64,000 nt of DNA. It comes from Glycomyces algeriensis (lineage in GTDB: Bacteria > Actinomycetota > Actinomycetes > Mycobacteriales > Micromonosporaceae). The notes under the pieces were generated by a model that searched no databases, was not told where the DNA came from, and saw nothing but the letters and a program-made list of their open reading frames with translations. A program made the translations under genes and the position numbers. This document shows, one piece after another, positions 55,833 through 58,010 of this stretch; position 1 is the stretch's first letter, and the number at the start of each line of letters is the position of its first letter. Location: positions 80,296 to 144,295 of the forward strand of contig NZ_JAPZVR010000007.1 in the NCBI RefSeq assembly GCF_027622855.1, read 5' to 3'.

Positions 55833-55859
55833 ATTCGGGGCCGGGGTCCGAGCGGATGG
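55833..55859 (-). promoter_or_regulatory. SigK-type promoter of the molybdopterin oxidoreductase
   Basis: On the minus strand, CCATCC (55859-55854), 15 bases, then CCGAAT (55838-55833), seven bases before the start codon. This equals the mycobacterial SigK consensus as I recall it. Confidence 0.75.
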
Positions 55860-55912
55860 GTCCGGGATCCAAATATTTCGGAGCAATGCCGTGAACAGGC
55901 ATGAAACACAGT

Positions 55913-55944
55913 GAGGGCCGGGCCCCCCACCGGACCCGGCCCTC
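55913..55944 (-). terminator. Terminator of msrA-sigK-rskA
   Basis: GAGGGCCGGG and CCCGGCCCTC form a 10-bp stem 16 bases after the rskA stop. It separates the regulators from the oxidoreductase promoter. Confidence 0.65.
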
Positions 55945-55960
55945 GCTCCTCCCCGAGCGC

Positions 55961-56701
55961 CTACGCGGGCAATGCCACGTCGGCGACCATCGGCAGGGTC
56001 GGGGCCGCAGACCCGCCCGCCGGCTCTTCGGTGACACCGATGAGGTCGGTGTCGCCCAGTCCATCGATCCACATCGTCGCCGAGGAGTCCCCGGCGTCCA
56101 TGACGCCCGCCGACTCCTGGCCGGCCTCGTCGACCAGCCACACCTGGTAGGAGCGGTCGTCGTCGACGGCGGCGAGGTCGGAGACGACCACGACGGCCTC
56201 GTCGAGCGACTCGGAGGCCACCACCGTGACGCGCCCGCCGCCGTCGGCCTCCTGGTAGGCGACCTCGGCATCCGGTGCCTCCAGGACCGCGGTCATACGG
56301 TCGGCCGTCGGCGACTCCTCCGGGCGCAGCACGGCCCAGGTCGCGAAGACGCCGGCGAACGCCGCGACGGCGGCCAGCGCGGCGGCGCCCACCGCGAGCC
56401 GCAAGCGCGGGAGGCGCAAGCGAGGCACGCGTCGGGCGGGCTTCGGCGCGGCCTCCGGCTCGCTGACGAGCGGGGCCTCCTGCCGGGTCCGGCGCACTTC
56501 GGCGAGGACGCGTTCGCGAAGAGCCGCAGGCGGTTCGGCCAGGGTCACGTCGGAGAGCCGCCACACCGCCTCGCGCAGTTCGCCCGCCTCCTGGGCGCAC
56601 GAGGCGCATTCGGTCAGGTGCTCCTCGACCTGGCGGCGCTCGTCCGCGTCGACCGCGTCGAGGGCCCAGGCGCCGATGAGGGTGTGGACTTCGGTGCTCA
56701 T
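55961..56701 (-). CDS. rskA: Anti-sigma-K factor RskA
   Basis: A 246-residue membrane anti-sigma factor. The cytoplasmic part has HTLIGAWALDAVDADERRQVEEHL and HLTECASCAQE, a zinc-type HxxxCxxC site. One helix (about 105-124) precedes an external RskA domain with SYQVWLVDEAGQ. It holds SigK inactive until proteolysis or redox release. The ATG start overlaps the sigK stop as ATGA, so they are cotranslated. Confidence 0.93.
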   Translation of the reverse strand: MSTEVHTLIGAWALDAVDADERRQVEEHLTECASCAQEAGELREAVWRLSDVTLAEPPAALRERVLAEVRRTRQEAPLVSEPEAAPKPARRVPRLRLPRLRLAVGAAALAAVAAFAGVFATWAVLRPEESPTADRMTAVLEAPDAEVAYQEADGGGRVTVVASESLDEAVVVVSDLAAVDDDRSYQVWLVDEAGQESAGVMDAGDSSATMWIDGLGDTDLIGVTEEPAGGSAAPTLPMVADVALPA

Positions 56702-57312
56702 CGGGCCACCTCCAGGCAGTCGCGCAGTTTCGCGAGGCCGTCGCGGATCCGCGTCTTCACGGTGGGGACGGCGGCCTCGAGCAGGGTCGCGACCTGCCGG
56801 TACGTGTGGCCGCCGTAGTAGGCGAGGGTGACGGCCTGCCGCTGGAGCTCGGTGAGGGTCTTCAGGCAGCGGCGCACCTGGCGGTGCTCCAGGCGGCTCG
56901 TCGCGGCCTCGACCACGGAGTCGTACTCGGTCTCGGTACTGCTGGCGGCGGCCCGGCGCTCGCGGTCCCCGGCGGCCTGCGCGGACCGGACCCGGTCGAC
57001 GGCGCGGCGGTGGGCGATCGTGGTGATCCAGGCGCCGGCCGACCCGCGGTGCTCGTCGAAGCGGGTGGCGGTGCGCCACACCTCGACCAGGACCTCCTGG
57101 GCGACCTCCTCGGCCTGGGCCGGGTCGCGCAGGACCCGCACGCAGAGGCCGTAGACGCGCGGCGCCATCAGGTCGTAGAGGGCGGCGAAGGCCGCGTCCT
57201 CCCCGAGGGCGGTGCGGTGCAGCAGCGCCTCCGGGGTCGCGGCCCCGGCATCGGGGACGGCGGTCAGCCGCGGTTCACGCCGGGGCCCGGGCCCGGCACC
57301 GGTGTCGAACAT
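56698..57312 (-). CDS. sigK: ECF sigma factor SigK
   Basis: A 204-residue ECF sigma factor. Region 2 has ALYDLMAPRVYGLCVRVL and EEVAQEVLVEVWRTATRFD; region 4 has ELQRQAVTLAYYGGHTYRQV and VPTVKTRIRDGLAKLRDCL. Cysteines in RRCLKTL and LRDCLEV are exactly 50 residues apart, the spacing of the redox-sensing pair in M. tuberculosis SigK (Cys133/Cys183). ATG at 57312 has GGAG seven bases upstream and follows the msrA stop by two bases; a GTG at 57318 is the alternative. It is followed by rskA. Confidence 0.93.
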   Translation of the reverse strand: MFDTGAGPGPRREPRLTAVPDAGAATPEALLHRTALGEDAAFAALYDLMAPRVYGLCVRVLRDPAQAEEVAQEVLVEVWRTATRFDEHRGSAGAWITTIAHRRAVDRVRSAQAAGDRERRAAASSTETEYDSVVEAATSRLEHRQVRRCLKTLTELQRQAVTLAYYGGHTYRQVATLLEAAVPTVKTRIRDGLAKLRDCLEVAR

Positions 57313-57314
57313 CC

Positions 57315-58010
57315 TCACGCTCCAGCCGTCGACTTGGGTGGTCGCTCATGGTTCGGAGCGGGAGGGCGCCCGGATGGGTCGGTGCCGCGGATTTCTCGCG
57401 CGGCGGATAAGGAGCGGGGCGGTTCCACCTCGACCTGCGCCTTGACGACGCCGACGGGGCAGGAGAGGCCGTTGGGTCCGTGGTTGCAGTACCCGTTCGG
57501 ATTGTGGTGCAAATATTGCTGGTGGTACTCCTCGGCGAGCCAGTACGGCCCGGCCGGGAGGATCGCGGTCGTGATCGGGCCGAGCCCGGCGGCGCGCACG
57601 ATCGGCTCGAACACGTCCTTGCTCGCCTCGGAGGCGTCCTGCTGCTCGGACGTGGTCGTGTACAGGACCGAACGGTACTGGCTGCCCACGTCGTTGCCCT
57701 GGCGCATGCCCTGCGTGGGGTCGTGGTTCTCCCAGAAGACCTTGAGGAGCTGCTCGTACGCGACCGCGCCGGGCTCCCAGACGACCTTGACGACCTCGGC
57801 GTGGCCGGTCAGGCCGGTGCAGACCTCCTCGTAGGAGGGGCGCTCGGTGTTGCCGCCCATGTAGCCCACGGAGGTCGTCCAGACGCCGGGGACGCGCCAG
57901 AAGAGGCGTTCGGCGCCCCAGAAGCAGCCCATGCCGAAGTACGCGGTCTCGGCGCCGGGGCCGGGGGAGCCTTCGATGGGGTGCTGCAGGATCGGGTGCG
58001 TCGTGCTCAT
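57315..58010 (-). CDS. msrA: Peptide methionine sulfoxide reductase A
   Basis: A 231-residue MsrA that reduces methionine S-sulfoxide. The active site is GMGCFWGAERLF; GHAEVV, NHDPTQGMRQGNDVGSQYRS and the CNHGPNGLSCP region with resolving cysteines complete it. The last 30 residues are an unconserved tail whose DNA holds the SigK-type promoter for sigK. CAGACT ends six bases before the ATG, a possible leaderless start. It heads the msrA-sigK-rskA unit. Confidence 0.95.
   Translation of the reverse strand: MSTTHPILQHPIEGSPGPGAETAYFGMGCFWGAERLFWRVPGVWTTSVGYMGGNTERPSYEEVCTGLTGHAEVVKVVWEPGAVAYEQLLKVFWENHDPTQGMRQGNDVGSQYRSVLYTTTSEQQDASEASKDVFEPIVRAAGLGPITTAILPAGPYWLAEEYHQQYLHHNPNGYCNHGPNGLSCPVGVVKAQVEVEPPRSLSAAREIRGTDPSGRPPAPNHERPPKSTAGA
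57351..57377 (-). promoter_or_regulatory. SigK-type promoter inside the msrA 3' end
   Basis: Minus strand CCATCC (57377-57372), 15 bases, CCGAAC (57356-57351). Predicted transcripts would begin about 30 bases before the sigK start. The spacing is identical to the copy at 55833-55859. Confidence 0.7.

Follow-up and report, generated by a model that had tools for sequence, protein, structure and literature searches.

The sigK Locus of Glycomyces algeriensis

The region analyzed here (the window) is a stretch of 64,000 nucleotides from Glycomyces algeriensis, whose minus strand carries, in this order, msrA, sigK, rskA, mop, a fasciclin-domain gene and a photolyase-family gene. Gene calls were made with a purpose-written codon-usage script rather than a standard gene finder. 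The features of the locus are as follows:

57315..58010, minus strand: msrA, methionine sulfoxide reductase, whose C-terminal part runs on across the sigK promoter
57351..57377, minus strand: SigK-type promoter of sigK-rskA (-35 CCATCC at 57377-57372; -10 CCGAAC at 57356-57351)
56698..57318, minus strand: sigK, ECF sigma factor, starting at GTG 57318 or ATG 57312
55961..56701, minus strand: rskA, membrane anti-sigma factor, overlapping the end of sigK (Pfam RskA_C, E 2.8e-24)
55913..55944, minus strand: G+C hairpin, terminator-like, between rskA and mop (from the fold of 55880-55970)
55833..55859, minus strand: SigK-type promoter of mop-fasciclin (-35 CCATCC; -10 CCGAAT), 7 nt before the mop ATG
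54335..55825, minus strand: mop, membrane oxidoreductase with a molybdopterin-binding domain (Pfam Oxidored_molyb, E 1.2e-42), predicted to be leaderless
53653..54279, minus strand: fasciclin-domain lipoprotein-like gene downstream of mop (Pfam Fasciclin, E 7.3e-31)
52388..53605, minus strand: photolyase-family gene, after a strong hairpin

The window SigK scores 267 bits against the NCBIfam model NF007228 (SigK, ECF19; cut-off 226 bits), the next family reaching 122 bits, and it aligns to the M. tuberculosis SigK chain 4nqw_A (PDB 4NQW) with an E-value of 1.4e-50. Both redox cysteines are kept in this alignment, in which their positions were numbered by counting; PMC7509140 numbers the conserved cysteines of M. 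tuberculosis SigK 133 and 183. The corresponding residues, C151 and C201 in the query numbering, do not vary among the window's sequence and those of 13 relatives (14 sequences in all). As expected of SigK (ECF19), an RskA-type membrane anti-sigma factor adjoins sigK, and by eye its N-terminal part looks like the AS19-1 helix motif given in PMC7406223. The fasciclin-domain (MPT70/83-type) gene sits directly behind mop in the unit with the SigK-type promoter; its domain is of the same class as mycobacterial MPT70/MPT83, an assignment that a table in PMC9861118 also gives.

The fold of 55880-55970 has an energy of -51.9 kcal/mol (z -2.66), and equally stable folds arose in 2 of 200 shuffles. A hairpin in the rskA-mop interval is clear in 11 of 12 Glycomyces genomes although the sequence changes, with a less regular fold in G011. 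This conservation argues that sigK-rskA and mop-fasciclin are probably separate transcription units. A single long transcript from sigK to fasciclin as the only unit is disfavored by the hairpin after rskA, with some read-through possible. A second hairpin lies between the fasciclin and photolyase-family genes (core stem 53613-53639, -34.8 kcal/mol, z -3.0) and has no T-run by eye; the photolyase-family gene is a possible member of the mop unit.

SigK-Type Promoter Sites

CCATCC/CCGAAT is the promoter motif of M. tuberculosis SigK. In a literature search the letters of the SigK motif were not found; among the matches listed, the one SigK-RskA paper that contains CCATCC has these letters only in a primer. 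Two copies of this motif with the same spacing had been claimed for the locus by a reading of the sequence alone, and both are indeed exact CCATCC-N15-CCGAAY on the minus strand, one before sigK and one before mop. They are the sole exact matches in the 64 kb window at spacings of 13-18, where shuffles give an expectation of 0.22 exact matches (two or more in 1 of 100 shuffles). The earlier judgment that such a pair is unlikely by chance is thus sustained, and the comparison across genomes described below makes chance very unlikely. With up to two mismatches allowed, the window lies at background (14 found against 15.0 expected), and so inside the window only the exact form is informative. The sigK site also bears an extended form, in which AC precedes the -35 hexamer and GC stands one base before the -10 hexamer.

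The mop ATG, at 55825, follows the -10 hexamer by exactly the 7 nt first described. The other site does stand before sigK, but the 39 bases given for its distance are one off: ATG 57312 lies 38 nt away, and the alternative start GTG 57318 lies 32 nt after the -10 hexamer.

It had also been observed that the sigK site lies within the msrA frame. This is true of the present strain and is not general, as 7 of 7 relatives differ: wherever msrA adjoins sigK in these relatives, it ends before the motif. The window msrA extends 32 codons (57315-57410, minus strand) beyond an EVEPPR motif, at or near which the seven relatives stop, and its frame overlaps that of sigK by four bases (GTGA). The run-on over the sigK promoter therefore looks specific to this strain, and an ancestral promoter embedded in msrA is ruled out. 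Since msrA covers the promoter and overlaps sigK here, unlike in the seven relatives, sigK could in this strain be transcribed mainly from msrA, with an internal promoter in decay and only the mop site still of consequence; G131, whose SigK is closest to that of the window, does have a mismatch in its sigK -10 hexamer. However, the window sigK site is an exact and full extended match even though a reading frame runs across it, and we regard this reading as unlikely.

Genome-Wide Scan and Predicted Regulon

The 5.59 Mb genome contains 11 exact matches at spacings of 13-18, six of them at N15. A genome-wide search had been proposed along with the motif. Three of the six N15 matches stand at promoter position (before sigK, mop and a gene for a DUF4383 protein), and three lie inside other genes. 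The fuller pattern ACCCATCC-N12-GC-N-CCGAAY, whose added bases are those found conserved in relatives, has exactly three matches in the genome, namely sigK, mop and DUF4383. A looser pattern, CMATCC-N12-GC-N-CCGAAY with one mismatch, gives 15 matches: the three promoters, eleven sites in genes, and a single weak intergenic site 88 nt before a gene (L336).

Because only three genes have the site at promoter position, the regulon is predicted to be very small, with three units: sigK-rskA, mop-fasciclin, and the distant DUF4383 gene. Besides sigK, mop is not the only target, for the following gene also has an exact site at promoter position:

G000:C34:151364-151902 (contig 34; L011, L251): gene for a DUF4383 membrane protein, preceded by an exact SigK-type promoter (Pfam DUF4383, E 4.3e-44)

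Among the sigK-bearing Glycomyces genomes, four have a DUF4383 gene with an exact site and two have one with a one-mismatch site, and in two further genomes DUF4383 lies behind mop-fasciclin in the sigK cluster. Such a link by site or cluster is present in 8 of 14 sigK-bearing and in 0 of 8 sigK-less genomes (Fisher 0.018; 12 of the 13 DUF4383 copies of sigK-less genomes examined). In some relatives the DUF4383 gene is inside the sigK cluster (L131, L383, L401). An amine oxidase was not found in the G. algeriensis genome at a threshold of 1e-60, and was matched in 2 of 22 genus genomes.

Conservation in the Genus Glycomyces

With presence defined as E <=1e-40, sigK occurs in 14 of 22 Glycomyces genomes. 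The genus has 98 exact N15 matches that correspond to 97 distinct sites, 71 of them in sigK-bearing and 26 in sigK-less genomes. The extended signature (AC before -35, GC one base before -10) is found in 24 of the former 71 and none of the latter 26. All but one of these 24 sites are intergenic, the exception being the window's own sigK site in the msrA frame. Two exact sites in sigK-less genomes are intergenic as well and lack the AC before the -35 hexamer.

All 15 main sigK copies of the genus are immediately preceded by an N15 site, which is exact in nine and has one mismatch in six; this agrees with the autoregulation of sigK suggested at the outset. The two carotenoid-linked copies, which complete the 17 of the genus, have no site in this position. 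A mop copy at >=74% identity is found in exactly the 14 sigK-bearing genomes of the 22. Its site is exact in 12 of the 13 testable copies and has one mismatch in the other (G125 was left out because site and mop are on different contigs), and the motif forms a conserved block in the alignment of mop upstream regions. Of the 21 copies of a mop paralog at 50-56% identity, 16 were examined, and none of these has a site even when one mismatch is allowed. The ATG follows the -10 hexamer by 7 nt in 12 of 12 genus mop copies checked, in line with the leaderless target mRNA that had been postulated; for L233 and L234 the site scan showed none because the protein match begins inside the gene, and in G069 an exact site does stand 7 nt before the mop ATG. 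In G129 (L213, L231, L282) the mop and amine-oxidase sites share a -10 change to GCGAAT, possibly a drift together with SigK.

These data bear on whether the sites are chance matches in G+C-rich DNA, that is, hexamer pairs without function, as the three exact N15 matches inside other genes and the background level of the window at two mismatches might suggest. Position and spacing are nevertheless kept, with one mismatch allowed, in 15/15 main sigK and 13/13 testable mop copies of the genus, the sites track the presence of sigK, and extra motif bases beyond those first noticed also match. On conservation and co-occurrence with sigK, chance is rejected as an exceedingly improbable explanation.

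Sites in Other Actinobacteria

Eighty named loci were compared, nearly all of them actinobacterial (one, L184, is titled Melainabacteria); L172, L185 and L194 have no gene labeled sigK, and genes with <300 nt of upstream sequence were left out of the counts. The named loci nearest to the window are those of G. paridis, G. terrestris and G. sambucus. Exact motifs upstream of target genes occur at a spacing of 15 only (30 genes), with none at 10-14 or 16-20. They precede sigK in 15/76, mop in 10/32, fasciclin genes in 4/35 and amine oxidase in 1/8, against 5/884 other genes. With at most one mismatch, N15 sites stand before 68/151 target genes and before 16/885 other genes (Fisher 2.9e-48, not a strict probability as the sequences are related), and such a site is present in 52 of 78 named loci, N16 sites being found in four and the other spacings of 12-18 in one or none. 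At two mismatches the N15 signal persists (sigK, 53/76), while the background rises (others, 60/885) and N16 sites appear before 19/76 sigK genes. The same N15 motif therefore precedes sigK, mop and fasciclin genes of other Actinobacteria, and the early proposal of a conserved specificity gains support from these comparisons. As 15/76 sigK genes of named relatives have an exact site, and 35/76 have one when a single mismatch is allowed, direct autoregulation is not universal.

Base counts of the 68 target-gene sites reveal AC ahead of the -35 hexamer and G following it; the second position of this hexamer is C or A, and GC is separated from the -10 hexamer by one base on its upstream side. The commonest gap from the -10 hexamer to the start codon is 7 nt (13/68). 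This gap and its occurrence in 12/12 genus copies indicate that the mop message is most likely leaderless.

At the level of the order, 20 relatives were picked for a high SigK score. Twelve of the 16 exact matches at spacings of 10-20 are at N15, and nine such N15 sites precede amine-oxidase or DUF1365-like genes upstream of sigK. An N15 match is present in 11 of the 20 loci; in the other nine there is no exact N15 site within 11 kb, and L331 has, instead of an N15 site, a spacing-16 site 7 nt before an amine-oxidase start. Five of the 20 relatives have the order amine oxidase-DUF1365-CFA-gene-sigK-rskA, which is also the mycobacterial order.

In the family (121 genomes, with sigK again scored at E <=1e-40), the extended motif is present in 55 of 78 genomes with sigK versus 3 of 43 without it, and a reversed-pattern control gave 0. 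The list of family sites comprises 72 rows for 71 of the 81 matches, one site appearing twice; among these rows, three sites fall within genes, and the nearest downstream gene is sigK in 17, fasciclin in 11, mop in 5, Ser/Thr kinase-like in 5, amine oxidase in 2, DUF4383 in 1 and unlabeled in 14, with no gene within 300 nt in 17. Several further gene types were seen behind SigK-type sites: Ser/Thr kinase-like genes of Micromonosporaceae (L143, L147, L158, L208, L352, L382, L390, L397, L404), assigned by eye or by BLAST to the L158 gene; secreted proteins that are presumably CHRD-like (L382, L388, L390); and, in Cellulomonas (L207), a gene that by eye looks dipZ/CcdA-like and whose start follows a one-mismatch site by 7 nt.

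Real promoters could also be read by another ECF sigma factor of similar preference rather than by this SigK. Genomes of the order are rich in ECF relatives (up to 16 SigK-model matches each), a SigK-model match above the cut-off is present in only 85 of 200 order genomes, and each of the three family genomes with the extended motif but no detected sigK has it once, two of these sites lying inside opposite-strand genes and the third (G012) being intergenic and unexplained. The signature nonetheless goes with sigK, given 0/26 matches in the eight sigK-less Glycomyces and 3/43 sigK-less family genomes, and the sites flank sigK itself, so that a different sigma factor is very unlikely. The motif, its near-strict spacing, position and conservation, and its co-occurrence with sigK are direct observations.

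Proposed Regulation of the Locus

From sequence we infer the binding of SigK, the points at which transcripts begin, the inducing signal and the role in physiology. SigK very probably activates its own operon, sigK-rskA, as well as mop-fasciclin, whose transcript is probably leaderless. Both sites would be read by RNA polymerase with the locus's own SigK, an ECF19-type factor paired with the membrane anti-sigma factor RskA. The sigK-rskA transcript would start ~30 nt before the start codon, which would provide autoregulation; this leader of ~30 nt carries a GGAG sequence that may serve as ribosome-binding site. The mop-fasciclin transcript would start at or beside the mop start codon to give a leaderless message, and the hairpin after rskA would keep the two units apart. 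An extracytoplasmic signal is proposed to free SigK from RskA, and thus to turn on both units together with the distant DUF4383 gene. The physiological role is probably envelope redox or photo-oxidative defense.

Carotenoid Operons With a Second sigK-rskA Pair

Two species of the genus (G130 and G117) possess a carotenoid operon that has a SigK-type site at its head and a second pair, sigK2-rskA2, at its end:

L343:7487-14959 and L344:7075-14465: carotenoid operons with a second sigK-rskA pair

The genes of the operon are NUDIX/idi-like, polyprenyl synthase (crtE), phytoene synthase (crtB), phytoene desaturase-like (crtI), lycopene cyclase, UbiA and DUF4267, according to a Pfam search that covered the G130 genes only. 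The site is exact in G130 and has one mismatch in G117. In all four genus genomes with idi-crtE-crtB, an N15 site that is exact or has one mismatch lies no more than 350 nt from idi, the distance varying; the sites of G122 and G131 are weaker, and no second sigK was found in these two genomes (E <=1e-40). Eight stand-alone idi genes have no such site in this range, and the idi type of the carotenoid operon is absent from the G. algeriensis genome.

What stimulates the SigK-RskA system of mycobacteria is obscure according to PMC9861118, which also reports that the M. kansasii fasciclin genes mpk83 and mpk70 are light-induced, with no light effect on dipZ. In Nesterenkonia, RskA is reduced after UV, according to PMC8965627. 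Together with the carotenoid operons, these reports make a photo-oxidative input plausible. SigK of Glycomyces and its kin might, tentatively, be a regulator of photo-oxidative or light stress, and the input of mycobacterial SigK might be envelope oxidants generated by light, because a SigK-type promoter heads a carotenoid operon that ends in sigK2-rskA2, and because the regulon has envelope redox proteins and sometimes adjoins a photolyase gene. A link of SigK to carotenoids, photolyase or singlet oxygen appears in no literature title among the matches listed.

Photolyase, cyclopropane synthase, amine oxidase and DUF1365 genes are targets of the singlet-oxygen regulon of Rhodobacter RpoE-ChrR (ECF11). 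Target genes of this type are also found here beside SigK loci or behind SigK-type sites. However, RpoE-ChrR belongs to a different ECF group with a different anti-sigma factor, and SigK as a singlet-oxygen sensor is without support in this analysis.

Comparison With the Mycobacterial System

In M. tuberculosis the SigK-RskA regulon consists of sigK-rskA, mpt83-dipZ-mpt70 and the Rv0449c operon. The two organisms have in common a SigK-family factor with both redox cysteines, an RskA-type membrane anti-sigma factor, a fasciclin-protein target and autoregulation (predicted in Glycomyces). PMC7509140 states that M. tuberculosis SigK autoregulation runs through the Rv0449c promoter, and, citing Veyrier (2008), that SigK sites are highly conserved between Actinobacteria. 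Autoregulation by SigK and conservation of its sites are thus already published, and the present case is a known kind of control in a new organism. The predicted autoregulatory promoter lies directly before sigK in Glycomyces, whereas the autoregulatory promoter is several genes upstream in M. tuberculosis. Unlike in M. tuberculosis, the Glycomyces fasciclin unit is headed by a molybdopterin oxidoreductase; no dipZ, a member of the M. tuberculosis regulon, was noticed among the Glycomyces genes called at 52-61 kb, and the Glycomyces genome differs further in its undetected amine oxidase (1e-60) and its added DUF4383 gene. Elsewhere (e.g., Micromonosporaceae, Streptomyces, Actinomadura, Nocardiopsis, Kribbella), sigK-rskA-fasciclin-mop clusters contain the same genes, many with the N15 motif, in varying order (e.g., mop-fas-sigK-rskA or sigK-rskA-fas-mop), and in some cases the site stands before a gene that is Ser/Thr kinase-like, dipZ/CcdA-like or CFA-synthase-like (the last two by eye).

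Relative to PMC7509140, the present comparison would add a site directly before sigK, a nearly fixed spacing, the extended bases, a small Glycomyces regulon and co-loss of the sites with sigK. The resulting promoter definition, AC-C[C/A]ATCC-N12-GC-N-CCGAAY with its nearly fixed 15-nt spacing, is sharp and tracks sigK across genomes, so that SigK regulons become readable from sequence with few false matches. Candidate regulon members are added, namely DUF4383 and, in relatives, carotenoid, Ser/Thr kinase-like and dipZ-like genes. If the photo-oxidative reading is true, mycobacterial SigK would respond to oxidants that light generates at the envelope; through the carotenoid link, such an input can be tested in a soil genus.
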